Of a DNA stretch of 64,000 nucleotides, positions 10,298 to 64,000 are shown one piece after another. Numbering within the stretch: the first letter of the stretch is position 1; every line of letters begins with the position of its first letter. The notes under the pieces were generated by a model. That model did no database searches. It was not told where the DNA came from and saw only the letters and a program-made list of their open reading frames with translations. Made by a program: the position numbers and the translations under genes. This stretch comes from Gemmatimonadota bacterium (GTDB lineage: Bacteria > JAAXHH01): the NCBI GenBank assembly GCA_009841265.1, contig VXMB01000007.1:472163-536162 (forward strand), in the 5' to 3' direction.

Positions 10298-11707
10298 ATG
10301 AAACGGCGAATCTGGCGGCTCACCGGCTACGTGCTGTTCTCCCTGTTCATCGGGACGTACACGGCTTCCCACTTTGCATCGCCATATGAATCTACGAACG
10401 AGGACGGCTCATACCCTGTGGATGGCACGAAATCGGTGGATGGCAAGCACTCGGGGAATGCCACGCCGGGGAATGCCGCGCCGGGGAATGCCGCGCCGGG
10501 TGATGCCGTGCCGGGCGATGAGGACTGTTATGCGGAGATCGCGTCCATCGACTACGGGGACGGGAGCGAGAAGCTCGAGAACAACCGGTTCCGCCATGTC
10601 TTCCAGTACATCGATACGTATCCCTACTTTCGTCGAATCAGCGACGTGTACGTGGGCATCGAGACGGTCCGGTACTTTCCAAATTCGACCCGGCCGAACC
10701 GGTCCTACTGGAGAATCGTGGACGGAAGAAAGGGCGTCGGCGCCGAGGGACACTACTCGTTCATCCAGGACTTCCGCGGTGAAGCGAACGTCCTGGGCGT
10801 CGCCGTCGGTGTGAATGTGGCCGACGAGTTTGCGTTCTTCTTCTACGACCGGGACAGCGATACAAACGCCAGTCATTATGCGCACGGCGCGAGGGAGGGC
10901 CTGCTCGACGTGATGACGACCATTGAGGACAAGGCGGAGTTCATCATCGTGGAGAAGGCGTCGAGCTGGCGCATCGGTACCAATACGAAGCTGCGAGCGT
11001 GGAGCTCGCGTTTCGTGGATTCGGACGGCGATTGGAACGAAGGGATTTACTCGAACAAGCTGTTCAGGACGTTGTACTTCATCAAAAGCCAGGTGACCGT
11101 TGCGGGCGTCGAGCGTGAAGTGAACGGGATCTGCAGGCTCGCCTGGTCTCCCGTGGCCGTGACGAATTCAGACAAACTGGTACCGGCCATCGAGGCGGAA
11201 CTGTTGCGCCGGGCTGATAGGATACACGCGTTGCGGATCGTCAACAACGAAGTGCCGGCATCGCGGGCGGAATGGAGGTCCGCTTTCAACAGCTTAAGAC
11301 CCGAGACGTTCATTCATGTGCTGACGGTCCCGAGGAGTCATTCCGGTGACTTCGGCGTGAGCACTGAAGTCGGTGAAATCGCGATCACCTTTACGCGTGA
11401 TCCTTACAGCGACCAGATCCGCTATCGCCCTGAAAAGGTGTGGAGGCTGGATGGAGCACAGCACAACTCCGGATTGTATCACTTCGACATTCAGGGACGT
11501 CTGTCCGTCGACGGACGGGACTTGGGATGGATCATCGACGCCAGGATCGGTACCTACTGGCGGTGCTGCGACGAGAACACCTACAATCTGAAGCACCAGA
11601 AGTTCGGGATGCAATGGAGGAATGTCGACAGGGATGACTACCGTATGCGATGCGGGTCCGAGGAGTGCAAGGTGTACATCAGGAAGGGGATCCTGCGGTT
11701 TCGCTGA
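10298..11707 (+). CDS. Secreted/membrane-anchored protein of unknown function
   Basis: I do not recognise a family. A hydrophobic N-terminal segment (about residues 8-28) looks like a signal peptide or anchor. It is followed by a low-complexity stretch (about 35-75) made of tandem GNAAPGNAAPGD-like pentapeptides, then a globular domain of about 390 residues rich in Tyr, Trp and Arg. Cysteines cluster near the C-terminus (WRCCDEN, MRCGSEECK), possibly disulphide-bonded. ATG 10298 follows an AGGAGA site. An AT-rich promoter-like stretch lies at about 10238-10272. It is convergent with the ABC permease gene, with a six-base gap. Confidence 0.7.
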   Translation: MKRRIWRLTGYVLFSLFIGTYTASHFASPYESTNEDGSYPVDGTKSVDGKHSGNATPGNAAPGNAAPGDAVPGDEDCYAEIASIDYGDGSEKLENNRFRHVFQYIDTYPYFRRISDVYVGIETVRYFPNSTRPNRSYWRIVDGRKGVGAEGHYSFIQDFRGEANVLGVAVGVNVADEFAFFFYDRDSDTNASHYAHGAREGLLDVMTTIEDKAEFIIVEKASSWRIGTNTKLRAWSSRFVDSDGDWNEGIYSNKLFRTLYFIKSQVTVAGVEREVNGICRLAWSPVAVTNSDKLVPAIEAELLRRADRIHALRIVNNEVPASRAEWRSAFNSLRPETFIHVLTVPRSHSGDFGVSTEVGEIAITFTRDPYSDQIRYRPEKVWRLDGAQHNSGLYHFDIQGRLSVDGRDLGWIIDARIGTYWRCCDENTYNLKHQKFGMQWRNVDRDDYRMRCGSEECKVYIRKGILRFR

Positions 11708-11713
11708 GCCCTC

Positions 11714-13492
11714 CTACACCCGTACCGTCAGCCCATCGTGGAGGGCCGTGCGGTAGGCTTTGAGGGCGGGGACGAAGCCCATCAGGAAACCGGCCGTCAC
11801 CACGGCGCCCATGAAGAGCAGCTCGACGGAACCGGGGGGCCGGATGGGGATGAAGAGCCCTACCTGTGCTTCGACGATAGACTGTCCGACTGAGAGCAGA
11901 ACATACACCAGGCCAAGTCCGGCGAGCGCTCCCGCCGCGGCCAGGCAGGCCGATTCGAGCACCAGCAGGGGAACGATCCGGTTGGGACCGGCTCCGACGG
12001 CGCGAAGGATCGCCATCTCCCGGCGGCGCTCGTTGAGCGACGTGTAGAGCGAGACCAGCATGCCCAGCAACCCCACCATTACGACGAAGATGGTCACCAG
12101 CCGCAGGCCGGTCTCGGCGTAACCCAGGCTCCGCCACATCTCGTTCAGGGCGACTCCAGGGATCACGGCCATCATCGGCTCGTCCTCGAAGTCGTTGATC
12201 TCGCGTTGCAGCATGAGCACGTCCCGGCGGTCGGTCGTGCCCACGAAGAACGAGGTCACCTGGGTGACTTCGACATCTTCAATCGAGAGATTCGCTTCGC
12301 CGTGTGCGTGTCCGTCGTCGGCGGCAGCCACCTCGGACTCGTCGTCATGCGTGTGTCCGTCGTCCGCAGCAGCTGTCTCCGTCTCTTCCTCGTGGTCGTG
12401 TTCGTCTTCTGCCGGAACCACCTCGGCCTCCTCCTCGTGGGTGTGTCCGACGTCCGCGGGGGCCGCCTGCGCTTCTTCCTCGTGGGCATGGCCGTCTTCT
12501 GCCGAAGCCGCCGCCGTCTCCTCCTCGTGTGCGTGTCCGTCGTCTATCGGGGTCGCCTCGGTCTCCTCCTCGTGGGCGTGCCCATCGTCAACAGGGTCCT
12601 CCTCCTCGTGTGCGTGCCCATCGTCGGCCGGGGCCGCTTCCATCTCTTCATCATGGGCGTGCCCATCGTCAACAGGGGCCTCCTCCTCGTGTGCATGCCC
12701 GTCGTCCGCGGCAGCCGCCTCAGGCTCCGCCTCGTGTGCGTGTCCGTCTTCTGCCGGGGCCGACTCTTCCGCTTCCTCGTGCACATGACTATCGTCCGTC
12801 GGGGCCTCCGCCTCATCGTGGGCGTGCCCGTCGTCCGATGCCGACGACGTACCTTCCTCCAGGTGGATAGCCTCCATGCCCTCGAGGGTCACGTAGAGGG
12901 CGCGGTCGACGGGGGTGAACGTCTTGGCGAGGACGCCCACTACCGTGAAGGGCATGTGGTCGTGGACCAGGAAGCCCACTTCGCCGATCCCGTGGGTCAC
13001 CGCGATCTCGTCGCCCAGTGTATAGTTCAGTTCGGTCGCCACGTCTGCGCCCAGGGTCACGTCGTACAAACCCTCGCTCGCCCGTCCCTCCGCCAGCGCG
13101 ATCTCCTGGCCTCCACGGTAGCGGTAGCGGTGATAGAAGTCGTCATTCGTTCCGATGACCCGGAATCCTCGGTGGCTGTCCCCCAGGCTGTAGGGGATGG
13201 TCCATGCGACGGCGGGGTGCTCCGCCCACTGCCGGTAGGCCTCCCACGAGACGTTCTCCGTCGGCGCGCCCATGCCGAAGACCGAATACAGCAGCAGCTG
13301 GATCGTGCCGCCCTTGGTACCCACGATCAGGTCGGTCTGGCTGATGGTGTTGGAGAAGCTTTCTCGCATGCCTACGCGCACGTTCTCAACACCGATAAGA
13401 AGGGCGACGCTGAGGGCGATGGAGCCCACCGTGAGCGAGGTGCTGAAGGCGCGGTTGCGGAGCGACTTGAGCGCGAGGTCCAAAACCAGCAT
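11714..13492 (-). CDS. FtsX/MacB-type ABC permease with an inserted His/Asp/Glu-rich repeat domain
   Basis: A 592-residue permease. One transmembrane helix lies near residues 18-36, then a long extracytoplasmic domain (about 40-455) and three C-terminal helices (about 465-485, 508-535, 558-577). This is the MacB/LolE-type layout with the FtsX core, including SLNERRREMAILRAVGAG. Residues 219-399 form an inserted block of 13 HxH units (mostly DDGHAHEEE), spaced 12-15 residues apart and rich in acidic residues, predicted to bind Zn, Cu or Ni outside the membrane. I chose ATG 13492 because it overlaps the ATPase stop (TGATG). The adjacent ATPase and DUF3299 gene recall the zinc-regulated Zrg system of Vibrio, where I recall the His-rich part being a separate protein. 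Metal transport is inference. Confidence 0.85.
   Translation of the reverse strand: MLVLDLALKSLRNRAFSTSLTVGSIALSVALLIGVENVRVGMRESFSNTISQTDLIVGTKGGTIQLLLYSVFGMGAPTENVSWEAYRQWAEHPAVAWTIPYSLGDSHRGFRVIGTNDDFYHRYRYRGGQEIALAEGRASEGLYDVTLGADVATELNYTLGDEIAVTHGIGEVGFLVHDHMPFTVVGVLAKTFTPVDRALYVTLEGMEAIHLEEGTSSASDDGHAHDEAEAPTDDSHVHEEAEESAPAEDGHAHEAEPEAAAADDGHAHEEEAPVDDGHAHDEEMEAAPADDGHAHEEEDPVDDGHAHEEETEATPIDDGHAHEEETAAASAEDGHAHEEEAQAAPADVGHTHEEEAEVVPAEDEHDHEEETETAAADDGHTHDDESEVAAADDGHAHGEANLSIEDVEVTQVTSFFVGTTDRRDVLMLQREINDFEDEPMMAVIPGVALNEMWRSLGYAETGLRLVTIFVVMVGLLGMLVSLYTSLNERRREMAILRAVGAGPNRIVPLLVLESACLAAAGALAGLGLVYVLLSVGQSIVEAQVGLFIPIRPPGSVELLFMGAVVTAGFLMGFVPALKAYRTALHDGLTVRV
12296..12838 (-). repeat. 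In-frame tandem repeats encoding 13 HxH metal-binding-like units
   Basis: This is about 543 bases of in-frame repeats of 36, 39 or 45 bases inside the ABC permease gene. Each encodes [D/E]DGHAH plus an acidic/Ala/Pro spacer. Unit lengths are 13, 15, 15, 12, 15, 12 and then mostly 15 residues. The repeat also creates long open antisense frames, which I regard as shadows. Copy number is likely variable among strains. Confidence 0.93.
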
Positions 13493-14175
13493 CAAAGCAC
13501 CGCCTTGTTGATGTCGGGGAGCGAAATGGTGCGGGAGAACATGCCTTCTAGGGCGCGGTCGTGGCTCACGAACACCAGCGTTGCGCCCGCGCGCTCGCAC
13601 TCCTGGAAGAGCAGCTCGAGGAAGTCCTCTCGGCGGTCGAAGTCCAGGGAGGAGGTCGGCTCATCGGCGACGATGAGCTCCGGTGCCCCGATGAGCGCGC
13701 GGCAGGCCGCCACCCGCTGTTGCTGGCCCACCGAGAGTTCGGTCACCGGCTTATTCAGTAGATCGCCGATGTGGAGATGACCGGCCAGCAGTGCGGCGGA
13801 CTCCTTCACGCCTGCGCCGTCCAGCCGGGCACGGCGCCCCGCGTGCATGCGCACCGGAAGGGTGATGTTGTCGAGCACCGACAGGTAGGGGATGAGGTTG
13901 AACATCTGGAAGACATAGCCGATGTGCTCCGCCCGGAAGGCATCCCGCTGTGAGCCCGAAAGTGAGGTGAGGTCTTCGCCCAGCACCGTGACCTCGCCCT
14001 CGTTCGCTTCCAGGACCCCCGCAAGTACGCCGAGCAGCGTGGTCTTGCCGCTGCCGCTGGGGCCGAACAGGAACGCGCGCGTTTCCCGTTCGAGGGTCAG
14101 CTCGGGGATGTCCAGCACCCAGGGGCCGCTGCCGTAGCGGAAGCGCAGATTCCGGATGTCGATGGCGAGACTCAT
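13492..14175 (-). CDS. ABC transporter ATP-binding protein (LolD/MacB-like)
   Basis: This is the ATPase partner of the His-rich permease. Walker A GPSGSGKTT is near residue 38, the Q-loop is in YVFQMFNLIPYL, the signature is LSVGQQQRVAACRAL (Gly to Val at the second position, as in some LolD/MacB relatives), and Walker B is LIVADEPTSSLD. A switch His is in FVSHD. Length is 227 residues, usual for this class. Its stop overlaps the permease ATG by one base, so the two are translationally coupled. Confidence 0.93.
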   Translation of the reverse strand: MSLAIDIRNLRFRYGSGPWVLDIPELTLERETRAFLFGPSGSGKTTLLGVLAGVLEANEGEVTVLGEDLTSLSGSQRDAFRAEHIGYVFQMFNLIPYLSVLDNITLPVRMHAGRRARLDGAGVKESAALLAGHLHIGDLLNKPVTELSVGQQQRVAACRALIGAPELIVADEPTSSLDFDRREDFLELLFQECERAGATLVFVSHDRALEGMFSRTISLPDINKAVL

Positions 14176-14295
14176 CTGTAGCCTATCCCTGCGAAACGTT
14201 GTTCAAAAAAAACCGCGCGTCCCGGCACAATCGAGTGCGCGCGCTGAGTGCATGCTGGAGACCGCGTCGTGCCTTGCAGGCGTCCGCGTCACGGA

Positions 14296-14835
14296 TCAGT
14301 ACTCGTACGGATAGACCCGCTTGCCGGTGATGGTGAAGCCGACGTAGCCGTACACGCTTTTGGTCATCTCGATCTTGAGCACGCCTTCGACCCACACCGG
14401 GTTCCACCCGTTCAAAAACGCCCATTTGTCCTTTTCCATCTCGATGTAGATGAGCTGGTTGGGCGGCGGAGGCGGCGTATGGATGCAGGCGCCGACATAG
14501 GGTACAAGGAGGAACTCCGTCACCGAGGACGCCCAGTCTTCAAGTGGAACAGCAAATCCGGGGACCTTGACGACTTTACCGTCGAGTTCCGCCAACTCCT
14601 CGCCCGGTTTGCCGGTGCGGTAGTCGAGACTGGCCAGGAGGTGCCAGCCCACCTTGATGGGCTCGTCGGCCGATTCGACCGACGGTACATCCGGCGGTGC
14701 GTACACCGGTGCGACGACCGGATGATTAGGAGCGGGCTTCGGTTCGGCCTTCGGGGATTCGCGCACAACGCTGAGGGACACCGTGACCAGCAGGGCGGCG
14801 GAAACAAAAAGTAGTTTGCGGGTGACGCCGATCAT
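14296..14835 (-). CDS. DUF3299 family secreted protein
   Basis: A 179-residue protein with an N-terminal hydrophobic signal segment (about 7-22) and a Pro-rich linker. The DUF3299 core follows: GWHLLASLDY, LDGKVVKVPGF, PLEDW, VTEFLLVPYVGACIHTPPPPPNQ (Cys and His suitable for metal or disulphide chemistry) and a closing strand GYVGFTITG. ATG 14835 has a GGAG site eight bases upstream. It is first in the three-gene operon with the ABC ATPase and His-rich permease, 120 bases ahead of the ATPase. Known family members sit beside such ABC genes; biochemical role is not established. Confidence 0.88.
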   Translation of the reverse strand: MIGVTRKLLFVSAALLVTVSLSVVRESPKAEPKPAPNHPVVAPVYAPPDVPSVESADEPIKVGWHLLASLDYRTGKPGEELAELDGKVVKVPGFAVPLEDWASSVTEFLLVPYVGACIHTPPPPPNQLIYIEMEKDKWAFLNGWNPVWVEGVLKIEMTKSVYGYVGFTITGKRVYPYEY

Positions 14836-14870: not shown

Positions 14871-14914
14871 TATATAGCATACAGCCATCTATTGGCAATA
14901 TAAACGTATATGCT
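14871..14914 (-). promoter_or_regulatory. Promoter of the DUF3299-ABC operon with a flanking inverted repeat
   Basis: Minus strand TTGCCA (14898-14893) is followed by TATATA after 16 bases (14876-14871) or 18 bases (14874-14869). An imperfect inverted repeat, AGCATAC (14876-14882) and GTATATGCT (14906-14914) on the plus strand, brackets the -35 element and could be an operator. The regulator is unknown; a Zur-type site is only a guess. Confidence 0.5.
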
Positions 14915-63543: not shown

Positions 63544-63849
63544 ATGAAGGGCGAACGAAAGCTTTTTCTCACACGAGCCGGTCGAGTTGGTGAAGACGAA
63601 TCCTACGCGCTGGAGAACAATCGTGCTATTGTCGGATTTAGGCAAGTAGGGTCGTTAAAAGGCGCAAAGAACCACGATGAGATTAAGAATATCGCAAAGG
63701 AAGCATATCCAGAAGAGAAACCTAGAGCCGTTGGTAACTACGCAGGACAACTCTGGGCTTTCGCACTTAGCATGCAACAGGATGACATCGTCGTGTTGCC
63801 ACAAAAGCTTACATCGCAAATCGCAGTCGGTACCGTCTCAGGGCCTTAA
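63544..63849 (+). CDS. Mrr-N-like restriction system protein, N-terminal part (likely truncated by an assembly end)
   Basis: The 101 residues match the N-terminal domain of restriction-system proteins: TRAGRVGEDESYAL, VGFRQVGSL, PRAVGNYAGQLWAFALSMQQDDIVVLP and AVGTVSGP. The family usually continues with Tyr in a GPY motif, then a nuclease domain. Here the stop TAA is formed exactly at the junction of a 152-bp perfect tandem duplication, so the end is probably artificial and the true gene longer. Confidence 0.6.
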   Translation: MKGERKLFLTRAGRVGEDESYALENNRAIVGFRQVGSLKGAKNHDEIKNIAKEAYPEEKPRAVGNYAGQLWAFALSMQQDDIVVLPQKLTSQIAVGTVSGP

Positions 63850-64000
63850 AGGAAGCATATCCAGAAGAGAAACCTAGAGCCGTTGGTAACTACGCAGGAC
63901 AACTCTGGGCTTTCGCACTTAGCATGCAACAGGATGACATCGTCGTGTTGCCACAAAAGCTTACATCGCAAATCGCAGTCGGTACCGTCTCAGGGCCTTA
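63696..64000. repeat. Perfect 152-bp tandem duplication at the window end
   Basis: Bases 63696-63848 equal 63848-64000 with an offset of 152 and no mismatches. The second copy ends exactly at the window end. The size and position suggest a contig-end artefact rather than biology. Confidence 0.95.

Follow-up and report, generated by a model that had tools for sequence, protein, structure and literature searches.

A histidine-rich insert in the permease of a Zrg-type ABC operon of a Gemmatimonadota bacterium: a possible built-in substitute for the zinc-binding protein ZrgA

ATP-binding cassette (ABC) systems of the Zrg kind were described in Vibrio, where zrgB encodes the permease, zrgC the ATPase, zrgE a DUF3299 protein and zrgA a DUF2796 protein (PMC9817125). 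Reports on V. cholerae and V. parahaemolyticus support zinc acquisition by Zrg (PMC9820375, PMC9817125), and V. cholerae ZrgA is reported to bind up to 10 zinc ions, about five fewer when its histidine-rich loop is missing (PMC9820375). Here we analysed a stretch of 64,000 nucleotides (hereafter the window; C7:472163-536162) from the 3.74 Mb, 97% complete genome of a Gemmatimonadota bacterium. It carries an operon with the Zrg-type DUF3299, ATPase and permease genes, and the permease contains a histidine-rich insert of 13 units. We give an even chance to the reading that this is an ABC system of Zrg type in which the insert serves as a built-in periplasmic metal antenna replacing ZrgA.

The three genes lie together on the minus strand, as the original prediction had stated and as Pfam searches confirmed. 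They encode a DUF3299 protein of ZrgE type of 179 residues (14296-14835; PF11736, 117.9 bits), a LolD/FtsE-like ABC ATPase of ZrgC type of 227 residues (13492-14175; PF00005, 99.6 bits) and a ZrgB-type permease of 592 residues (11714-13492; PF12704 and PF02687). The prediction had also pointed to a link with the Vibrio Zrg system, and the gene assignments match (PMC9817125). Its description of the three genes as coupled suits the ATPase and permease genes, which overlap by one base, but is slightly strong for the DUF3299 and ATPase genes, which are 120 bp apart. The DUF3299 protein carries a signal- or anchor-like segment at its N-terminus and a GACIHTPPPPPNQ motif, and matches PDB entry 4hsp (E 4e-23), identified as PA4066 (PMC8561739). 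The ATPase remained under the cut-off in each of the 25 NCBIfam models listed. For the permease, the ATG at 13492 was taken as the start (592 residues) and not the upstream GTG of the open reading frame (ORF) caller (628 residues).

The permease is of the FtsX type, with four transmembrane (TM) segments and a MacB periplasmic core, as in type VII ABC transporters. It matches PDB structures of LolCDE and MacB, and an AlphaFold2 model was made; a MacB/LolC (type VII) fold is predicted. It shares 51% identity, over 67% covered, with a permease encoded on a Pseudomonas aeruginosa plasmid in the operon DUF2796-ATPase-permease-DUF3299, which has no gene between its four. By sequence, the window permease is a ZrgB homologue; the comparison was made with this plasmid-encoded permease, not with PA4065 of strain PAO1. 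A scan of genome contigs detected DUF3299 and ATPase genes both near the permease in 32 of 36 loci. In three of the other four (L028, L033 and L034), the permease is near a contig end, and in L037 a DUF3299-like gene was recognized by eye. All 13 genomes searched from the window's genus have DUF3299, versus none of four others of its phylum, and in the class of G039 it was found in 56 of 198 genomes.

The insert covers permease residues 215-401 (187 residues; 12290-12850, minus strand). The 13 units announced by the original prediction were all found, and its length of 181 residues becomes 187 with the present borders. Each unit follows the pattern [DE]-x-x-H-x-H, of the type DDGHAHEEE, at a spacing of 15 residues except for three spacings of 12-13. 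None of the 26 unit histidines is lost, although 5 of their 26 codons are the synonymous CAT and not CAC. Histidine makes up 13.9% of the insert versus 2.0% of the remainder of the permease, a stringent form of the unit pattern has 17 matches in the genome with nine of them inside the insert, and the same loop of relatives contains 3 to 23 His-x-His (HxH) motifs in frame. The conserved histidines despite CAT/CAC changes, the enrichment, the pattern count and the motifs of relatives indicate that the repeat is more than chance. Among close proteins carrying an insert (91 parsed of the best 120 of 5059 matches), inserts range from 20 to 196 residues, with 0-16 HxH and no cysteine.

In the AlphaFold2 model, the confidence score (predicted local distance difference test, pLDDT) is below 50 nearly throughout residues 218-398, and the histidine-rich segment is predicted to be disordered and periplasmic. 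A ZrgA domain fused to the permease was considered and rejected, since Pfam detected no domain besides the two of the permease and disorder is predicted for the segment. The repeat is thus located inside the permease, as the original prediction had proposed, but as a loop expansion and not as a fused ZrgA. Two plus-strand antisense ORFs over the repeat (12195-12788 and 12206-13780) were treated as shadow frames of DNA with a high guanine-cytosine content. Loops at the same site are long (105-156 residues) but histidine-poor in L109, L120, L124, L127, L135 and L143, and an HDHGD motif ends this loop in five of these six relatives (not L143).

The insert begins five residues past an invariant histidine, H210, which closes the stretch H167-H210 (12863-12994, minus strand). 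An alignment of 72 permeases contains 31 invariant columns; the only three histidines among them are H167, H177 and H210, and D196 is one of three invariant aspartates. This set (HHDH) is kept in 72/72, 48/48 and 98/98 aligned permeases, sets that overlap, whether or not a loop is present. The four residues may form or line a metal-receiving site, and we propose HHDH as a mark of the ZrgB-type family. A loose Cys-Pro-Asn pattern searched in the fetched loci gave 192 matches, overlapping loci being counted repeatedly, and 189 of them read GAC[IVL]H. This is the motif of DUF3299, which could provide a second candidate set of ligands.

ZrgA (DUF2796/PF10986) was not found in the window's genome, which is 97% complete, in agreement with the idea that a separate histidine-rich protein has been replaced. 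As this feature of ZrgABCDE was searched for and not found, the window system is not a strict member of that group. As a positive control, the same PF10986 model detected ZrgA in relatives whose permease lacks the insert, with a best E of 1.5e-38. Across the 36 scanned loci, mostly from Gemmatimonadota or Latescibacterota and with four Gammaproteobacteria in the no-insert set, ZrgA was detected in 0/15 genomes with an insert-bearing permease versus 14/18 with the no-insert form, which has 421 residues where complete. Amylibacter, without an insert, has ZrgA, and Sinomicrobium, with a histidine-rich loop, has none. ZrgA also exceeded the cut-off in 17 of 48 further genome entries, some of which are repeated genomes, and in none of the 12 belonging to the window's genus; genome G012 of this genus gave a match of 21.6 bits, under the cut-off.

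The association was then expressed for the Gemmatimonadota-type set and the window's genus, after removal of duplicates and partial genes. ZrgA was present in 0/21 genomes with at least three loop HxH versus 31/45 with fewer (Fisher p 2.7e-8 on the assumption of independent rows, which does not hold). This comparison was drawn from 81 permease rows of 80 genomes, 15 rows being left out: seven genome copies of the genus, a half gene (L028), the partial or broken L102, L121, L034 and L134, the distant L105, and L036 and L037, which fall outside the set. The five partial, broken or distant rows (L102, L121, L034, L134 and L105) have neither a histidine-rich loop nor ZrgA and would enlarge the class lacking both by 5. 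L036, which has ZrgA and no loop, and L037, which has a loop and no ZrgA, agree with the pattern. The partial L012 was kept, and no permease could be used from G080, G172, G012 and G013. The definition of "histidine-rich" varies: three HxH in this 66-genome comparison, three histidines for the Rhodobacterales operons and five histidines in the 98-permease tree, both described below.

In the tree of these 66 genomes, the histidine label changes four times, and four independent pairs can be formed, about two of which differ in the expected way, none in the opposite way and two not at all. Each of the two histidine-rich lineages has a sister with ZrgA: for the window's clade it is L141, and for L118/L119 it is L116. 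L141 has insert-type flanks, a single DDEHDHEH unit and ZrgA, and from its sequence looks intermediate. Regarding the position of zrgA in no-insert genomes, no permease was found near it in 13 ZrgA regions (L057-L069), and it adjoins the permease operon in L113, L122, L133 and L142. In L057, L059, L060, L062, L069, L108, L112, L130, L137 and L140, its neighbour is a second DUF3299 gene in the opposite orientation.

Histidine-rich loops recur at the same permease site in Gemmatimonadota, in Flavobacteriaceae, to which Sinomicrobium belongs, and in Rhodobacterales, to which Amylibacter belongs. The search suggested by the original prediction, for histidine-rich permeases beside DUF3299 in other genomes, was thus successful in several bacterial groups. 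The architecture, which it had called possibly undescribed, is therefore not unique; in the open-access literature searched, we found no title or abstract describing a histidine-rich FtsX/MacB-like zinc permease. Among 149 Flavobacteriaceae genomes, 14 carry the permease and none has ZrgA over the cut-off (one match of 22 bits, in a permease-bearing genome, is under it); 12 of 15 permeases of this family have at least five loop histidines. Of 117 relatives of the Sinomicrobium permease (from the best 120 of 6789 matches), 64 have at least three loop HxH and 94 at least one. A FUR-like gene is located directly 3' of the operon in L037, L177, L185 and L190 (PF01475 confirmed for L037), and within a few kb of it in L180, L181, L182 and L187.

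The permease is present in 91 of 390 Rhodobacterales genomes. A purpose-built ZrgA profile with 23 seeds detected ZrgA in 0/23 operons with at least three loop histidines versus 18/19 with fewer. These 42 operons are a selection and not a census: 40 regions were chosen from the 91 genomes (24 with the high-scoring loop type and 16 with the lower-scoring one), L194 and L036 were added, and one copy was dropped. L200, L202, L217 and L218 end near the operon, and a ZrgA could be missed there. Contig L213 contains an ATPase, a His-loop permease and a DUF3299 gene; after a gap of 1.9 kb, and in the same orientation, ZrgA, an ATPase, a loop-free permease and DUF3299 follow. We counted this ZrgA with the second, loop-free operon. 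A permease on a Shinella plasmid has a histidine-rich loop too. It is one of the distant permeases (L196, L197 and L198) found on Thermus, Deinococcus and Shinella plasmids near alkaline phosphatase genes (PF00245 in Shinella and Deinococcus), and small CPFC-containing proteins occupy the expected place of DUF3299 at these plasmid loci.

A tree of 98 permeases gave ZrgA in 0/46 with at least five loop histidines versus 33/52 others, and nine independent pairs, about two in the expected way, none opposite and seven without a difference. It is a chosen subset that includes a hand-picked 37 of the 81 rows above, and long branches make parts of it unsure. Because same-site chains occur in relatives whose compared operons or genomes lack ZrgA, the histidine-rich chain likely takes over the metal delivery of ZrgA. 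We tentatively extend this to the family, with somewhat less confidence than for the window itself: Zrg-kind ABC systems may have repeatedly dropped the soluble zinc protein and grown a histidine antenna within the permease, beside an HHDH receiving site that would define the family.

The window system likely works like Zrg, with the metal-delivering function of ZrgA moved into the permease. Loose binding of Zn(II), or Co/Ni, to the HxH units would enrich the metal around the permease and make a soluble carrier unneeded. H167, H177, D196 and H210 would receive the metal from the loop. ATP hydrolysis in the cytoplasm would power a mechanical movement in the periplasmic domain, similar to that of MacB/LolCDE, and pass the metal on, with the DUF3299 protein perhaps acting as a partner in the hand-over. 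Such mechanotransmission is reported for type VII transporters (PMC11481552) and is likely the working principle here too. The most likely use would be a periplasmic zinc hand-over supplying the cell.

Several observations weigh against an antenna that replaces ZrgA. In V. cholerae, ZrgA is reported to be essential for the system and its histidine-rich loop dispensable, and knockouts of zrgE (DUF3299) to have no growth effect (PMC9820375). Since the needed part of ZrgA is a folded domain, which the insert lacks, the insert is no plain loop-for-loop substitute; it would have to keep metal tethered to the permease and thereby remove the need for a folded carrier. Moreover, 19 of the 98 permeases have fewer than five loop histidines and no ZrgA, and the independent contrasts (four pairs and nine pairs) agree in direction but are too few for significance. 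Both kinds of operon are found together in seven Rhodobacterales genomes, so that the separation holds per operon and not per genome, and ZrgA could act in trans there.

Regulation belongs to the same side of the balance. A promoter-like TTGCCA-16-TATATA was read by eye 5' of the DUF3299 gene (14871-14898, minus strand), and its core is partly conserved in an alignment of nine upstream sequences. A PF01475 search found one FUR-family gene in the window's genome, adjoining znuA (PF01297), in a zinc cluster (L192) whose order was read by eye as znuC-znuB-znuA-zur-cobW, with two CobW-like genes. This cluster lies about 225 kb from the window operon on the same contig, and a palindrome, GTTACGTTATAACATAAC, is found upstream of it. 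No Zur box of this znu type was seen in the 400 bases around the operon start, where the best match reached 10/18 positions versus a shuffled mean of 10.5. The ZrgA promoters of relatives have a box of the type TGATAACGAGAATACA-TATCATT; this box or a variant, which looks Fur/Zur-like, occurs in the nine intergenic regions read between ZrgA and the second DUF3299 gene (those of the loci listed above other than L069), and a scan of the region upstream of the window operon gave no box like it. The antenna-type operon may thus not be induced by zinc starvation, which speaks against a regulation that simply mirrors that of Vibrio. The link with metal genes expected from the original prediction holds through DUF3299 and the family identity; nothing else in the window supports it, and the znu/zur cluster is distant, with its box unseen at the operon.

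Published work conflicts on the direction of transport, acquisition being supported in Vibrio and export of pyochelin-cobalt by PA4064-PA4065 being reported in P. aeruginosa (PMC11481552). The latter speaks against a zinc hand-over to the cell and, with the MacB/LolC fold of the permease, in favour of a MacB-type exporter that would expel a metallophore, or a metal complex, from the periplasm, with the histidine-rich loop gathering surplus metal or complexes. A HlyD/MacA-like adaptor gene (PF16576, PF13437) directly 5' of the His-loop operon of Ruegeria (L194, 2179-3288) would fit such a pump, but among the 40 Rhodobacterales regions genes like it were flagged only in L199, L209 and L210, and Pfam named no adaptor among nine window genes, the genome not having been searched for TolC or HlyD. 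Given also the Vibrio evidence for acquisition, we regard export as unlikely, although a serious alternative.

Distinctly unlikely, in our view, is a role without net transport, with the insert acting as a store or sensor of periplasmic zinc that gates the ATPase, or with the complex metallating zinc enzymes that are secreted. Mechanotransmission in type VII transporters (PMC11481552), the dispensable loop of V. cholerae ZrgA (PMC9820375), which fits a buffer, and the alkaline phosphatase genes next to the plasmid-borne Shinella, Deinococcus and Thermus members speak for such a role; this linkage was, however, observed in distant members only, and Pfam shows no zinc-enzyme partner among the nine window genes scanned. 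A neutral low-complexity expansion, caused by slippage where the loop tolerates it and unrelated to metals, would account for the quick change in unit number among near-identical proteins (577, 592 and 538 residues) and for the six long histidine-poor loops. It is very unlikely in view of the unit histidines kept despite synonymous change, the same-site enrichment in several lineages and the association of histidine-rich loops with the absence of ZrgA.

Two other features of the window were recorded. A 469-residue protein without a Pfam match is encoded on the plus strand at 10298-11707, convergent with the permease, and its gene contains a 15-bp tandem repeat (10452-10515). At the window end (63696-64000), a perfect 152-bp tandem duplication lies within a plus-strand ORF (KGERKLFLTRAGRVGEDESYALENNRAIVGF...), which runs into a stop in the second copy; it may be a recent duplication or an assembly artefact.

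Zinc handling by MacB-type systems is disputed, with Vibrio work describing an importer and Pseudomonas work an exporter, and with ZrgA being needed in Vibrio and its histidine loop not. Permeases with their own histidine segment, together with genomes that contain both kinds of operon, make the contribution of ZrgA accessible to study, and the four invariant HHDH residues are targets for mutation. If the antenna reading is true, a disordered tether has taken the place of a binding protein on more than one occasion.

Among known systems, ZnuABC, the cluster A-I zinc importer, resembles the window system in that ZnuA also has a flexible histidine-rich loop (PMC9820375, PMC8561739). It differs in the type of permease and binding protein, and the window's genome has its separate znu/zur cluster elsewhere. 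MacAB-TolC and LolCDE (type VII) share the permease fold and topology; the histidine-rich loop sets the window permease apart from them, no adaptor was named beside its operon, and its ATPase is a separate chain, a feature shared with LolCDE. The alignment with solved MacB/LolC structures covers mainly the C-terminal TM part, so that absence of the HHDH set there is not established. PA4063-PA4066 of P. aeruginosa has the same gene set, and the 51% identical plasmid homologue of that gene order has HHDH, with a short loop containing one histidine and with ZrgA/PA4063 present. ZrgABCDE of V. cholerae and V. parahaemolyticus shares the DUF3299 protein, the ATPase, the 4-TM MacB-like permease and a histidine-rich segment, metal-binding in Vibrio and presumably so in the window system. 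Apart from the missing ZrgA and the unseen Zur-type box, the difference is one of location: this segment is part of the soluble ZrgA in Vibrio and of the permease in the window.

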